64,000 nt of DNA from Shewanella putrefaciens (lineage in GTDB: Bacteria > Pseudomonadota > Gammaproteobacteria > Enterobacterales > Shewanellaceae), in NCBI RefSeq assembly GCF_016406325.1, contig NZ_CP066370.1, forward strand, positions 1,860,001 to 1,924,000. The letters are read 5' to 3'. Each line of letters begins with the position of its first letter. The stretch's first letter is position 1. The position numbers and the translations under genes are program-made. The notes below the pieces were generated by a model. It searched no databases and was not told the DNA's origin. It saw only the letters and a program-made list of their open reading frames with translations. This document shows, one piece after another, positions 14,670-21,823 of this stretch.

Positions 14670-16829
14670 TTAATTTAATGGCAGTGTGACTAGGATATCC
14701 ACACCATCGTGTTCGCTACGGTTACGGGCGAGAATTTTGCCTTGATGGAACTCAGCGACTAGCCGCGCAATATATAAGCCTAAGCCGAGGTGCGGTTTAT
14801 CTTGAGCCTGATTGATCCGCACTGACACCATAGAATCGAAAATCTGCTCCGACATATCAATTGGGAGTTCAGGCCCTAAGTTACTGATCAGTAATGTGGC
14901 TTGTTTACCTACTTGGGTGAGCGTCACTTCAATGGCGCTATCCTTGTGACAAAACTCAATCGCGTTGGCGATAAGCTTATCCATTAACTGAGCGATATAT
15001 TCGGGTACGCCTTGCATCATCAGCGGCTGTTCTGGCACTTTTACGCTAAATCGTTGTTCAGGATAAGTGATTTGATACCCCTGCATACAACCGCTGATCA
15101 CTTGAGACAGTGGAAACTTAGTGATATCAGCCTGCAATAAACTTTGCTCTAGGCGCGTTGCTTCGCTCATATTATTGAGCATCATGCTTAAGCGGCTCAC
15201 GCCTTCCTGCGCGCGGTCGACATATTTTTGCGCATCTTGATCTAAGGTTTGCAGGTTTAAATGCTCAAGGGACGATCGCACTACGGCGACGGGGGTACGG
15301 AGTTCGTGGGAGAGGCGCGACGACATATTTTCCAAATAATGGGTGTATTGGCCTAGGCGTCCGACGATACTCGAAAAACTACGCGAAAGATCGCCAATTT
15401 CATCCCGAGCCTTTGACGGTTTAAGGTTATTGCGCACTCGACCTTGGCTGTCGATGGCATTTTCTGCCTCATCCCGCAGTTTGCGAATTCGGTTTGAAAT
15501 ACTCGAAGCAAAGAAGAACAGCGCCAGTGTGCCCATGCTCATAATGGTCAAGATCACGTTAAAGAGTTTTTCCAAGGCACGGTTACGTAGAGTACGAATA
15601 CCGTGGGTGGTTTCTTCGGCAACGACGGCGCCCATCACATTGTTATCAATCCAGATAGGGCTCGCAGCGGCGAGTACTACCGCTTTGTTATCTGGGGTTA
15701 AGCGCCAAGTCGAACTTTGCTGACCCGAGAGCGCTTTTTGGATATGGCTGCCATCAAGTTCAGTAGAATCCTGCAGCGAATCAATAAAATCCTTGGGTGG
15801 TTTTGTCAGAATTTTGTAATACAGGGGATGCAGATAATCCCGTTTAAAGCTTCCCCAGAGTGAGCCTGGTGTTTCATCTTCTAAGGTGCGGGTCCAGACA
15901 CTGCTATTCGCGCGCAGATCTCCGGATTTCGCTAATACCCGCCCATGTTTGTCTACCACCCATACTCTTGAGCTATAGTGACTCATCCCTTTGATAATAC
16001 TTTCAATTTCTGGTGATGGAACTAATACAGTGCCGAGTTTATCGACGGTGTCCAAGGCGGATGTACCCACAATTGCGGTGATGTCGCGATATTTACTGTC
16101 ATTCACATCGGCAATGGCAAAGCCGAGTTTGCTACCGACCATATTAAGGGGAATACGCAGCTCAATATTGTAGCCCACATCGGTTGTTGCCCATTGTCCT
16201 TGGATACGCACTTCCGGGGTGACAGGCACCGTCAGCTTAGGATTAGCGGGTAATTCGAAGGCGCTGATCCAGCCTGGCTGAGTGGTGGCAACAATATAGC
16301 GTTTGAATTTATTGTCGGGTGACAATGTGGCGATGGATAAGTGATCATTTCTATCGACACTGAGGGCATTTTTGCCGCGAAACACCACATTAGGGTCAAC
16401 TACTTGGAAAAAGGCGTACAGGTAACCATCATATTGGCCGACCATATGGGTAAAACTTAAGGTTAAGGGCGTGGTTGGATCGGCGCGCATGATTTGATTC
16501 GCCTCTCCGTATTGGATAAATCTGTGCTGATATTCCTGCCACTCGTTAAGTTTTCCATCGAGTAATATTGCTCCCGCCAGTGGATAGGCGTAGAGATCGC
16601 GACTTTTTTCCACTTGCTTTAAAAAGCTCGCTTGGCCATCAAACAGCTTTGGGCGCTCGTGCAGCGCAGTTGCAAGCGCCTGTGTGGTTCCTTCTAAAGT
16701 ACGTTCTTGACCATGGCGTAAGTACTTTTCCATCTCCCAAACATATTGATACCCAAGCCAAGGTAGGCAGAGTAAAAATAGGCTAAGGCCAATGACTTTT
16801 GTGCGTAAGCCGAAGGGAAAACGTGTCAT
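14670..16829 (-). CDS. pdsS: Sensor histidine kinase of the proteobacterial dedicated sortase system
   Basis: A 719-residue inner-membrane sensor kinase. It has an N-terminal membrane segment (residues about 8-28), a long periplasmic region (about 30-425), and a second membrane segment near 430-450. A HAMP-like linker follows, then a HisKA domain with His508 in SRLSHELRTP, and a HATPase domain with the late glycine motif LGLGLYIARL. The periplasmic part starts with DGKLNEWQEY, which looks like the opening of a CBM9-type domain (inference). Size, architecture and location beside a class GN sortase fit the known dedicated-sortase kinase family. The regulator gene lies 32 bases upstream; they form one operon. 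Confidence 0.85.
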   Translation of the reverse strand: MTRFPFGLRTKVIGLSLFLLCLPWLGYQYVWEMEKYLRHGQERTLEGTTQALATALHERPKLFDGQASFLKQVEKSRDLYAYPLAGAILLDGKLNEWQEYQHRFIQYGEANQIMRADPTTPLTLSFTHMVGQYDGYLYAFFQVVDPNVVFRGKNALSVDRNDHLSIATLSPDNKFKRYIVATTQPGWISAFELPANPKLTVPVTPEVRIQGQWATTDVGYNIELRIPLNMVGSKLGFAIADVNDSKYRDITAIVGTSALDTVDKLGTVLVPSPEIESIIKGMSHYSSRVWVVDKHGRVLAKSGDLRANSSVWTRTLEDETPGSLWGSFKRDYLHPLYYKILTKPPKDFIDSLQDSTELDGSHIQKALSGQQSSTWRLTPDNKAVVLAAASPIWIDNNVMGAVVAEETTHGIRTLRNRALEKLFNVILTIMSMGTLALFFFASSISNRIRKLRDEAENAIDSQGRVRNNLKPSKARDEIGDLSRSFSSIVGRLGQYTHYLENMSSRLSHELRTPVAVVRSSLEHLNLQTLDQDAQKYVDRAQEGVSRLSMMLNNMSEATRLEQSLLQADITKFPLSQVISGCMQGYQITYPEQRFSVKVPEQPLMMQGVPEYIAQLMDKLIANAIEFCHKDSAIEVTLTQVGKQATLLISNLGPELPIDMSEQIFDSMVSVRINQAQDKPHLGLGLYIARLVAEFHQGKILARNRSEHDGVDILVTLPLN

Positions 16830-16861: not shown

Positions 16862-17554
16862 TTAGGCTAGGCTGTCCCAGCGGTAGCCCATGCCATAAAC
16901 CGTATCGATACAATCAAATTCAGGAGCAGAGGCGATAAATTTTTTCCGGATCCGTTTCACATGGGAAGTGATAGTGCTGTCATCAACAAAGATTTTTGCC
17001 TCTTGCATTAATTCGTGACGGCTACGGACATGGCCAGGGTGTTTTGCTAACGCATGTACCATCCAAAACTCGGTTACGGTCAGTTCGATAGGATGCTGGT
17101 TCCAATAGACCTGCATGCGATTAGCATCGATGGTTAAGGGACCTCGTTCGAGTAGGTTTTCCTGTGGCGTTTGACTGGCTGCGAGTTCAGAGCGGCGAAA
17201 TAATGCGGCTAAGCGTGCGGTCAAATGTGGAAAACTCACCTCTTTACTTAGGTAATCGTCGGCACCTAAGCGCAGGCCGCACACGGTATCAAAATCGCTG
17301 TCGCGGGCGGTTAAAAAGATAATCGGCAAGGTGTTCGACATCGCGCGGAGGGATTGACACAACATAAAGCCACCATCGATCTCATTGCCTAAGCCAATGT
17401 CGATAATCGCTAAATCGGGTAATCGCGTATTAAAGGCTAACATAGCCGATGGCCTGTCGGCATAAGTTTGTACGCTATAACCGTGTTGTTGCAACACATC
17501 CTTGTAATTTTCTCGAATGGCGGCTTCATCTTCCACTATGGCGATACGCTTCAT
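16862..17554 (-). CDS. pdsR: OmpR-family response regulator of the dedicated sortase system
   Basis: A 230-residue two-component regulator. The receiver domain has acidic residues in VEDE (8-10), the phosphorylation site Asp52 in LAIIDIGLG, and a Lys in LSKE. The C-terminal winged-helix DNA-binding domain spans about 135-228 (SRHELMQEAKIFVDDSTITSHVKRIR region). It is first in the operon with the kinase. It is divergent from the sortase target gene; the 275-base region between them is the likely site of both autoregulation and control of the sortase genes. Confidence 0.88.
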   Translation of the reverse strand: MKRIAIVEDEAAIRENYKDVLQQHGYSVQTYADRPSAMLAFNTRLPDLAIIDIGLGNEIDGGFMLCQSLRAMSNTLPIIFLTARDSDFDTVCGLRLGADDYLSKEVSFPHLTARLAALFRRSELAASQTPQENLLERGPLTIDANRMQVYWNQHPIELTVTEFWMVHALAKHPGHVRSRHELMQEAKIFVDDSTITSHVKRIRKKFIASAPEFDCIDTVYGMGYRWDSLA

Positions 17555-17635
17555 AGAGCCATATTCCTATTGACTTGGGGGATTAAGTTTTCGTGACTAT
17601 ACAGGATTTTACCTGAGAAAAAAGTGCCTAAATGC

Positions 17636-17680
17636 AATTGCCATTTTGTTGCCACAATTGATAGTTGCATTGCCATTTTC
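17636..17680. promoter_or_regulatory. Phased TTGCC repeats between pdsR and the sortase target gene
   Basis: TTGCC occurs at 17638, 17649 and 17670, 11 and 21 bases apart, i.e. on the same helix face. Two copies lie in a longer 11-base direct repeat, ATTGCCATTTT, at 17637 and 17669. OmpR-type regulators commonly bind such direct repeats. The site lies 83-128 bases before the pdsR start and about 150-190 bases before the target gene. Binding by PdsR is inferred. Confidence 0.4.
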
Positions 17681-17829
17681 CATCCCTGCTCGTGCCATTC
17701 TAACTGTGTTTAATAGCCCCATTCAGTTTTGCACCCCGCATGTTGAGTTGTGGGTATCGATGCGAGTGCAAGCTCAACTAAAGATTAAGTAGAACCAATA
17801 TCCATACTTACAAGAAGGAAGCCTTTGTG

Positions 17830-20103
17830 ATGGTCACAGGGAAAAGGATAAAAGAAGTCGTTGAAGCAGTCCTGATGGTTGTTGTCAGCATTGCTATTTT
17901 TTTGGGGTTACCATTTGCAGTCCTAGCATCGCCAAATACAGCAGTAACCTTATTTGGGTAACAAGATGCAACTCCTGCATTGGAAGTACACATTCCGCAG
18001 CAGCAACAAACATTAGATTACGATGATATTACTCAGGGGATGCTGTTGTATTTCATGCCAAATGGTGCCTTATTGCCTTCTTTACCCCTCGATACACAGG
18101 TGTCGATGCAAGTGTCGGGCTTAAATAATCGCGTTAGCGTGAAGCAGATTTTTACTAATAACACCGAATTTGTGTTAAACGGCCAGTATTTGTTTCCTTT
18201 ACCAAACGAGGCCGCAGTCGATTCGCTACGTATGCACATAGGTCAGCGGGTAATAGAAGGGCAAATTCATCCCAAAGCTGAGGCTAAGCAGATCTTTCAA
18301 CAGGCAAAAGCTGAGGGGAAACGCGCCAGTCTTGTCAGCCAAGAACGCCCCAATATGTTTACGACTGACGTGGCAAACCTTGCGCCAAATGAACAATTAG
18401 TTGTCGAAATTAGTTACCAGGAAAACATCAAATATGAGGATGGCCTATTTAGTTTGCGCTTTCCTCTGGTAGTGGCGCCGCGCTATATACCAGGTTTCAT
18501 CCACGATAAGGCTTCTGCCAATGACAATGCGGCTAACTCGCGTGTCACCAGTAGCGAAGTTTTTGATGCTGAACGTATCGTTGCGCCATTAAGAAGAGCC
18601 AATAGCAAACAAGATCCTGTGCTTAACGCCAATATTGAGGTGCGTCTTGCTAAGGGCGTTGATAAATCAACCATTGCAAGTCCTTACCATCAGATCAAGC
18701 TGGATGAGCCGCATCACGGCATCATCAATGTATCACTTACCAATAGCGTGGTCGCAAATCGTGATTTTGTGCTGCAATGGCGTGCTAAACAAGGCATGAG
18801 CCCAATGGCTTTAGTCTTTAATCAGCAGGGCAAAACCCATGGCGATGGTGCTTCTGAAGATAACGTCTCTGAAAACCGCCAATCAGATGATCACTACAGT
18901 CTTGTGATGGTGTTACCACCCAAGACTGATGAACACGCGTTGTCCACATTACCCCGTGAATTAATTCTAGTAATTGACACCTCTGGCTCCATGGCGGGGG
19001 ATTCGATAGTACAGGCCAAAAGTGCGCTTCTCTATGCGCTTAATGGATTAAAGGCTGAAGACAGTTTTAATATTATTGAGTTTAATTCTGAATTGACGCA
19101 ATTATCGCCAACATCATTGCCAGCAAACCAAACACATCTTGCCCGTGCAAGGCAATTTATTCATCGATTACAGGCTGATGGTGGCACAGAGATGGCGTTA
19201 GCACTGAATGCTGCCTTGCCTCGGGGTATAAACCGCTTGTCGGAATCATCTCAATCCTTGCGTCAGGTGATTTTTATGACTGACGGTTCGGTGGGTAATG
19301 AGCAAGCCTTATTTGATCTGATCCGTTATCAAATAGGTGAGAGTCGCTTGTTTACTGTGGGTATTGGCTCTGCGCCTAATTCGCATTTTATGCAAAGAGC
19401 TGCAGAACTAGGTCGAGGTACTTTTACCTATATAGGTAATGTGGATGAGGTTGAGCAGAAGATAAGCCTGCTGCTAAGTAAAATCCAGTATCCAGTATTA
19501 ACCGATATTAACGTGCGCTTTGACGATGGCGGGGTGCCTGATTATTGGCCATCACCCATCCCAGATTTGTACCGTGGTGAGCCTGTTGTTGTCAGCCTAA
19601 AACGCAGTGAGCGTGAGCCGCAGGAACTTGTGATTTCTGGTCGTCAGGGCCATAAAAACTGGCAACAGTCACTTTCGCTTAAAGATAGCCATGGTGGAGC
19701 CATTACCGAACCCGATGCAGGTTTAGATTTACTCTGGGCTAGAAAGCAAATTGCAGCACTGGAACTCAGTAAAAATGGCGCAAATGATGACAAAGTAAAG
19801 CAGCAGGTAACTGCATTATCAATGAATTACCACTTAGTCAGCCCTTACACCAGTTTAGTGGCGGTAGATTTAACGCCTATTGATTCCAGCGCCATGACGC
19901 GTGATGCCGTTGTACGCCAACACTTACCCTTAGGTTGGAAACCCTTTGGTGTATTACCACAAACGGCCACATCGAGTCGTTTCGATATGCTACTTGGTGC
20001 TGTCACTTTGATATTAGCATTGCTGTTAGCAGGCTCAATGCTGCGTCAACGCCGCAAAGAGAGAGCTGTCATTCTCGCTATCCCCTACAAACAAACATTA
20101 TGA
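17830..20103 (+). pseudogene. Sortase target protein (VIT + vWA domains), interrupted by in-frame stop after the signal peptide
   Basis: From ATG 17830 (GTG 17827 is also possible; AAGGA lies at 17815) the frame encodes a signal peptide with basic GKRIKEV, a hydrophobic core and an AVLA-type cleavage region. At codon 44 it meets TAA (17959-17961). The same frame then continues without another stop to 20103. That part has a VIT domain, a vWA domain with the MIDAS motif DTSGS (about 19000), and a C-terminal sorting signal: LPQTA at 19954-19968, a hydrophobic helix and a basic RQRRKER tail. One base change at the TAA would restore a complete exported sortase substrate. A start at TTG 17980 would make a protein without an export signal and has no Shine-Dalgarno sequence. 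Sequencing error cannot be excluded. Confidence 0.85.
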
Positions 20104-20115
20104 GCATTTAACCTT

Positions 20116-20730
20116 ATGAGTAGACAGCAGACACGGCGAATTTTGCTAGTGGGATTGTTATTGCTCGGCGGTACATTGTTAGGAAAAGGACTCTATATGC
20201 AAGCTAAAGCACATTTCGCACAATATTTGATAGAACAAGCATGGACTAAGACTCTGGCCGATGGACAATCCCACAAACCTTGGTCATGGGCCGATACCTA
20301 TCCTGTTGCTAAATTGTCTATTTATCAAAACCATAAATTGACACATTTTGATGAGATTGCCGCAAACGATAGCTTATATGTGCTTGCGGGAGCGTCGGGA
20401 CGTAACCTTGCGTTTGGCCCAAGTTTAGTGTTATCCAGTGCGTCAGCAGGCCAAGTAGGGAATACGGTTATTGCAGGGCATAGGGACACGCATTTTGCGA
20501 TATTAAATGGGATGAGTGTTGGACGAAAAATATCCCTACAAACGGCTTCGGGAAAAGACATTCTTTACCAAGTAGTGGCAACGCAGGTTGTGCACGAGTC
20601 ACAAACGGAGTTTATGGCACCTTCAGAAGATGAAAGGCTCACCCTTATTACATGTTACCCTTTTAATGACATTCAAGGCGGAGCCGAACTACGATTTGTG
20701 GTACAAGCCGTGCCCGTTTTATCCTCGTAA
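20116..20730 (+). CDS. Class GN sortase
   Basis: A 204-residue Gram-negative sortase, a transpeptidase that cleaves LPxT-type sorting signals. An N-terminal signal anchor lies at residues 9-27. The catalytic residues are visible: His122 in VIAGHRDTH, Cys180 in TLITCYPF and Arg193 in ELRFVV. It starts 12 bases after the stop of the vWA target gene, whose LPQTA motif is its probable substrate, so the two form one operon. The premature stop in the target might reduce sortase expression by polarity. The ATG at 20116 has a weak ribosome-binding site, suggesting coupling to translation of the target gene. Confidence 0.92.
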   Translation: MSRQQTRRILLVGLLLLGGTLLGKGLYMQAKAHFAQYLIEQAWTKTLADGQSHKPWSWADTYPVAKLSIYQNHKLTHFDEIAANDSLYVLAGASGRNLAFGPSLVLSSASAGQVGNTVIAGHRDTHFAILNGMSVGRKISLQTASGKDILYQVVATQVVHESQTEFMAPSEDERLTLITCYPFNDIQGGAELRFVVQAVPVLSS

Positions 20731-20797
20731 ATCACCTCGTTTCAGCTAAGGCGTGATGATGTTTCAAGTGCTAAAGCCATCTGAAATATCAACACGC

Positions 20798-21823
20798 CTA
20801 GTTACTTATTGGCATCACCCGATTACGGCCGAGTCGTTTGGCTTCATAGAGTAACTTATCCGCCTTTTCAATCAGTTGAAGCCCTGTTTGTTTTTCTTGC
20901 CATTGCGCGACACCAAAAGAGGCACTGATATTATCGATGCGTTCATCTTTACGTCTGTCTTTTAAGCTGAGCTTTTCAAGCCCTCTGCGCATGGCTTCAG
21001 CCAATTGACGGGCAATGCGTAATTGGCTCTTAGGCACGAGAATGGCGAACTCTTCACCGCCAAAGCGGTACAGTTTAATTCCATCACGGCAGGATTCTTG
21101 TAAGCGCTTAGCAACAGCACGCAATACCTGATCGCCCATTTGGTGACCATAGGAGTCGTTAAACACTTTAAAGTGATCGATATCGACCAAAATGACGCAA
21201 GTCCCTTCGGGAGCTTGGGTTAGCATACCGCTGAAGTCGGCATCAAATGCGCGGCGGTTAAGGCACCCTGTGAGCGCATCGTAAAGTACATCTTTTTCCG
21301 TTTGTTCGAGTTTTTTCTTAAGGGCATCGATTTCCGTTTGTGCCTTTTGTAATTGTCCGGTGAAAAATTCAGTGCTAGAACGAATATTGTCGGATTCTTT
21401 TACTAAACTCCGCACTAAATCGAGTACTTGCTCGACACTAAAACCTTCATCTTCAATACGATGGAGTTTCTCAAAATTGCTCTCAATACGGGATTGAAAC
21501 TCATGGGTATCAAGATTGGTGTCTTTGAGCGATTGCGAAAGCTCAGTCACCATGGCATCTAAATTTTGGCGCATTTCTCGTACGTCCAATTCGACGGGAT
21601 CGGCCACATATTGGCGGTAGAGCAACTCACTACTCACAGGCGGACAAGTATTGTATTGCGCGATAACAGTATCAAGCTGCTCATTTAATGCTGAATTTTG
21701 CTCCCCGACATAGGTGTACCAGAGTGCATAATTCACTGGTGTCGTGGGAATTTTATGTTTTAGCATTAGCGGAACGGCTTTTTTTAAATTTAATGCGGCG
21801 GTTTGTAATAATTCTCGTGACAT
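20798..21823 (-). CDS. Diguanylate cyclase (GGDEF domain)
   Basis: A 341-residue protein that probably makes cyclic di-GMP. The active-site motif is GGEEF at residues 255-259, with the metal-binding Asp in ILVDIDHFK (about 214). The usual inhibitory RxxD five residues upstream reads RDGI, so product inhibition at a canonical I-site is unlikely. The N-terminal 160 residues form an unrecognised helical domain beginning with TAALNLKKAVPLM; residues 155-180 look like a coiled coil leading into the GGDEF domain. No membrane segment is apparent, so it is likely cytoplasmic. Confidence 0.9.
   Translation of the reverse strand: MSRELLQTAALNLKKAVPLMLKHKIPTTPVNYALWYTYVGEQNSALNEQLDTVIAQYNTCPPVSSELLYRQYVADPVELDVREMRQNLDAMVTELSQSLKDTNLDTHEFQSRIESNFEKLHRIEDEGFSVEQVLDLVRSLVKESDNIRSSTEFFTGQLQKAQTEIDALKKKLEQTEKDVLYDALTGCLNRRAFDADFSGMLTQAPEGTCVILVDIDHFKVFNDSYGHQMGDQVLRAVAKRLQESCRDGIKLYRFGGEEFAILVPKSQLRIARQLAEAMRRGLEKLSLKDRRKDERIDNISASFGVAQWQEKQTGLQLIEKADKLLYEAKRLGRNRVMPISN

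Follow-up and report, generated by a model that had tools for sequence, protein, structure and literature searches.

An in-frame stop codon just past the leader of a sortase target gene in Shewanella putrefaciens, probably a very recent strain-level nonsense substitution

The sortase locus examined here, which lies in a stretch of 64,000 nucleotides of Shewanella putrefaciens DNA (the whole stretch analysed, hereafter the window), raises the question of why a target gene that is otherwise open should be interrupted by a stop codon shortly after its export leader, right next to an intact class GN sortase gene. This sortase is described as dedicated and strictly Gram-negative, with its gene located beside that of its single target (PMC3237569), deletion of srtA in S. 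oneidensis did not raise current density (PMC8176591), the role of the Gram-negative sortase is called unknown (PMC10581121), a sortase target is merely named in an expression table (PMC6637203), and sortase background including the His, Cys, and Arg triad is provided (PMC1569441). Our literature search found no paper naming the sortase together with PdsO. Compared with the proteobacterial dedicated sortase system (TIGR03784, TIGR03788, TIGR03785/TIGR03787, and TIGR03789 for PdsO), the window locus has the same gene order and orientation, and all four genes found exceed the curated cut-offs, whereas the target has an early stop and PdsO is missing (Table 1). No match was obtained in the plasmid collection.

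Translation of positions 17830-20103 reveals that the frame opened by ATG 17830 consists of 43 codons encoding a signal-peptide-like leader, which by eye has a basic start, a hydrophobic core, and an AxA-type site after approximately residue 33. It is closed by the TAA at 17959-17961, which is the only stop before the end of the frame at 20101-20103 and is followed by 713 open codons in phase with the leader, so that signal peptide and mature part are not joined in one frame in the window. Considering that these 713 codons belong to an 836.5-bit match to the marine proteobacterial sortase target family (TIGR03788, cut-off 551.65) and that relatives contain both parts in one frame, the shared frame of leader and target is beyond chance. 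The LPQTA motif is followed by a hydrophobic stretch and the basic tail RQRRKER, the layout of a C-terminal sorting signal, and the VIT and vWA domains of Pfam are precomputed for P0001, a 757-residue full-length homologue (from a cluster of 57 members) that is 99% identical to the window target. The signal peptide, the stop, the in-phase open frame, the VIT and vWA domains, and the LPQTA signal had been proposed in the original prediction, as had the integrity of the adjacent sortase, which begins 12 bases after the target and has an intact open frame of 204 residues. The same prediction placed the stop exactly between signal peptide and mature protein; it is indeed near this junction, but it sits about 10 codons past the likely cleavage site, i.e., inside the mature part, within a stretch that is variable in sequence and length across relatives.

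Table 1. Features of the sortase locus, with positions counted from the first letter of the window
Feature	Position	Strand	Basis or remark
Histidine kinase	14670..16829	-	TIGR03785, over cut-off
Response regulator	16862..17554	-	TIGR03787, over cut-off
Intergenic region between regulator and target; pdsO site in most relatives	17555..17829	.	Locus comparison
Truncated frame, 43-residue signal-peptide-like leader and TAA	17830..17961	+	Translation; leader kept in S. profunda and other relatives
In-frame stop TAA	17959..17961	+	Missing from S. profunda and P0001
Remainder of sortase target, 713 codons and stop	17962..20103	+	TIGR03788
TTG, earliest possible in-frame start past the stop	17980..17982	+	No Shine-Dalgarno-like sequence ahead; CTG in S. 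profunda
LPQTA sorting motif; hydrophobic stretch and basic tail come next	19954..19968	+	Sequence read
Class GN sortase	20116..20730	+	TIGR03784, 249.6 bits, cut-off 158.25; open frame

Comparison of the site in close relatives supports a recent loss, one of the options raised at the outset. The target of S. profunda DSM 15900 is 92% identical to that of the window and its frame is open through the stop site, and P0001 has no stop at this position either. The window target and P0001 differ at 6 of the 757 aligned positions, at four of which S. profunda agrees with the window and at two (the stop and residue 433) with P0001. Because S. profunda sides with P0001 at these two, only they, and hence the stop, belong to the window's own short branch. 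Between the window and S. profunda, the target has a dN/dS ratio of 0.139, compared with 0.137 and 0.166 for two pairs of intact targets (G114-G120 and G114-G123, respectively), and the sortase one of 0.047. When target changes were polarised with three outgroups (90 of them were unresolved), 34 silent and 14 replacing changes were assigned to the window branch and 28 silent and 22 replacing changes to the S. profunda branch; decay preceding the stop is not indicated by any of these figures. Older decay was rejected because change is not accelerated on the window branch, and phase variation by slippage was rejected because the alignment of the window with S. profunda shows no change in length around the site.

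We consider it quite probable that the class GN sortase has lost its one dedicated substrate through a nonsense substitution of very recent origin, confined to this strain or its close lineage. Translation from 17830 would then produce the 43-residue leader fragment and halt at the TAA, the codons past the stop would be untranslated or read solely from rare internal starts lacking an export signal, and the sortase, whose own gene is open together with both two-component genes, would receive no substrate. The full-length protein is presumably absent, and the living strain itself, rather than the consensus sequence alone, presumably carries the change. The event itself is most likely an ordinary one with no new mechanism: a nonsense allele at the strain level, in a system that is known but has received little study. 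Like an ordinary strain-specific nonsense pseudogene, it has one premature stop that is missing from its close homologues, open frames in relatives, and no conserved recoding signal found; there is no difference in kind, and the window case stands out solely by its position after the leader and by its youth.

The stop amounts to one differing base, seen in a single genome record, and an undamaged remainder of the frame also fits a base error. An erroneous base in the consensus, or a mutation that arose during laboratory cultivation, would leave the gene of the natural strain intact; the single differing base, the absence of other damage to the gene, and unrelaxed selection all accord with this explanation. 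Nevertheless, the genome is assembled in one contig (4,386,330 bases) with a listed completeness of 100% and contamination of 0.29%. An isolated wrong base would not be expected in such an assembly, and we regard this explanation as unlikely.

Profile searches of 129 Shewanella genomes and 14 control genomes were used to place the interrupted gene in its genus. The target exceeds its cut-off in 111 of the 129 Shewanella genomes and the sortase in 113, and none of the 14 control genomes exceeds either cut-off. Among the 111 genomes with a target, the open frame beyond the family-matched length is shortest in the window genome (65 residues; next 79, median 113). The possibility that homologues lack the upstream signal-peptide segment, considered in the original prediction, was not borne out: 53 of 55 inspected Shewanella loci (some genomes being present twice) possess an in-frame hydrophobic leader, the two exceptions being the window and a frame-split copy (L079). 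Measured as the best 15-residue mean hydropathy, the leader reaches at least 1.78 in the 53 loci and 1.21 in the window. Other broken targets among the 113 sortase-bearing genomes are frame-split (G001, G109, and G081) or cut by a contig end (G126). Given the completeness (99, 90, and 96, respectively) and contamination (4, 4, and 3) of the three genomes with frame-split targets, sequencing error is possible in these cases.

Other LPXTG-type substrates were also sought in the genome. The LPXTG_anchor family yields 15 weak matches genome-wide at E values up to 10; six pass, or are counted as passing, the low cut-off of this family, which is unspecific (matches in 14 of 14 control genomes, over cut-off in nine). 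The match to the window target alone begins at model position 1, the motif end, all others starting at position 5 or later, and among the eight of the 15 that were fetched only the window target has an LPxT/S motif near the match. Since only this gene among the 15 covers the motif end and only one of the eight has LPxT/S, the stop would, within these limits, leave the sortase with no detectable LPXTG-type substrate; to the same extent, the suggestion that the system lost its only obvious substrate holds. If the substitution is real, the strain is a naturally occurring knock-out in which the one LPXTG-type substrate that can be detected is lost while enzyme and regulators are intact, and might be convenient for asking what this little-studied Gram-negative sortase does, although no new mechanism is implied in itself.

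The absence of pdsO is more unusual than the stop itself. PdsO (TIGR03789) exceeds its cut-off in 115 of the 129 Shewanella genomes, but the window genome has no PdsO at the locus and no match above the TIGR03789 cut-off genome-wide. PdsO is also below the cut-off in G112 (S. profunda), G114, G120, and G123, and in all five genomes both sortase and target are above theirs (G126, cut by a contig end, was left out of this set). At the loci compared (window 17555-17829, L134 from S. profunda, L135, L091, and L092), pdsO is cleanly gone from between regulator and target, and the regulator start and the target position matching TTG 17980 are 425-460 bases apart in the five pdsO-less genomes, compared with 1236-1328 in the four PdsO-bearing genomes measured. 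In a tree of kinase and regulator genes, which comprised 16 rows out of a larger genus, the five pdsO-less genomes form two well-supported groups, a topology that would fit one or two losses of pdsO. In the four genomes besides that of the window, the target has remained intact despite the lack of PdsO, even though the targets of the two groups are only approximately 75% identical. A broader scenario can be drawn from these observations, in which Shewanella is losing its dedicated sortase system piece by piece: PdsO would have been lost first, in one or two lineages in which sortase and target were still under selection, followed now by the target of this strain, leaving the sortase substrate-less. 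The system would in that case be conditionally useful and repeatedly selected against. We hold this scenario to be rather improbable.

Two further explanations would retain a functional product in spite of the stop, both of them mentioned in the original prediction and neither gaining support here. In the first, internal reinitiation, for example at the in-frame TTG 17980, which is 18 bases past the stop, would yield a cytoplasmic form with a role of its own; yet no Shine-Dalgarno-like sequence is visible by eye before this codon, which is CTG in S. profunda, and the product would be devoid of the export leader kept by 53 of the 55 loci, making reinitiation very unlikely. The second, readthrough of the stop to full-length protein, is extremely improbable in spite of the frame past the stop being intact and under selection until recently: the stop is not conserved, being missing in S. 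profunda and P0001, no Rfam element reaches the gathering score at 17500-20800, and no stop-reading anticodon occurs among the tRNAs detected by ARAGORN (98 in the fetched stretches and two in the window). In bacteria, UAA as a rule terminates translation efficiently. A suppressor tRNA was rejected, none being present among these 100 tRNAs; the tRNA-family search gave 100 matches, with 150 of 294 first-look candidates scored.

Several minor observations were made at this and related loci. The simple pattern LPxTx was not found in the last 110 residues of eight targets (L010, L020, L022, L023, L025, L027, L049, and L050), implying that the sorting motif may vary among targets. One locus (L098, in G060) contains target and PdsO but lacks a sortase match, its target apparently being an orphan substrate, and another (L094, in G027) has a full PdsO match beside mere fragments of target and sortase, which represents advanced decay of the locus. 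A scan of promoter-like and terminator-like sites (3 and 8, versus shuffle means of 6.4 and 3.0, respectively) was uninformative overall. Upstream of the operon, the region 17560-17730 of the window is strongly conserved across the aligned pdsO-bearing and pdsO-less relatives, and it is possible that this region is a promoter region bound by the regulator.
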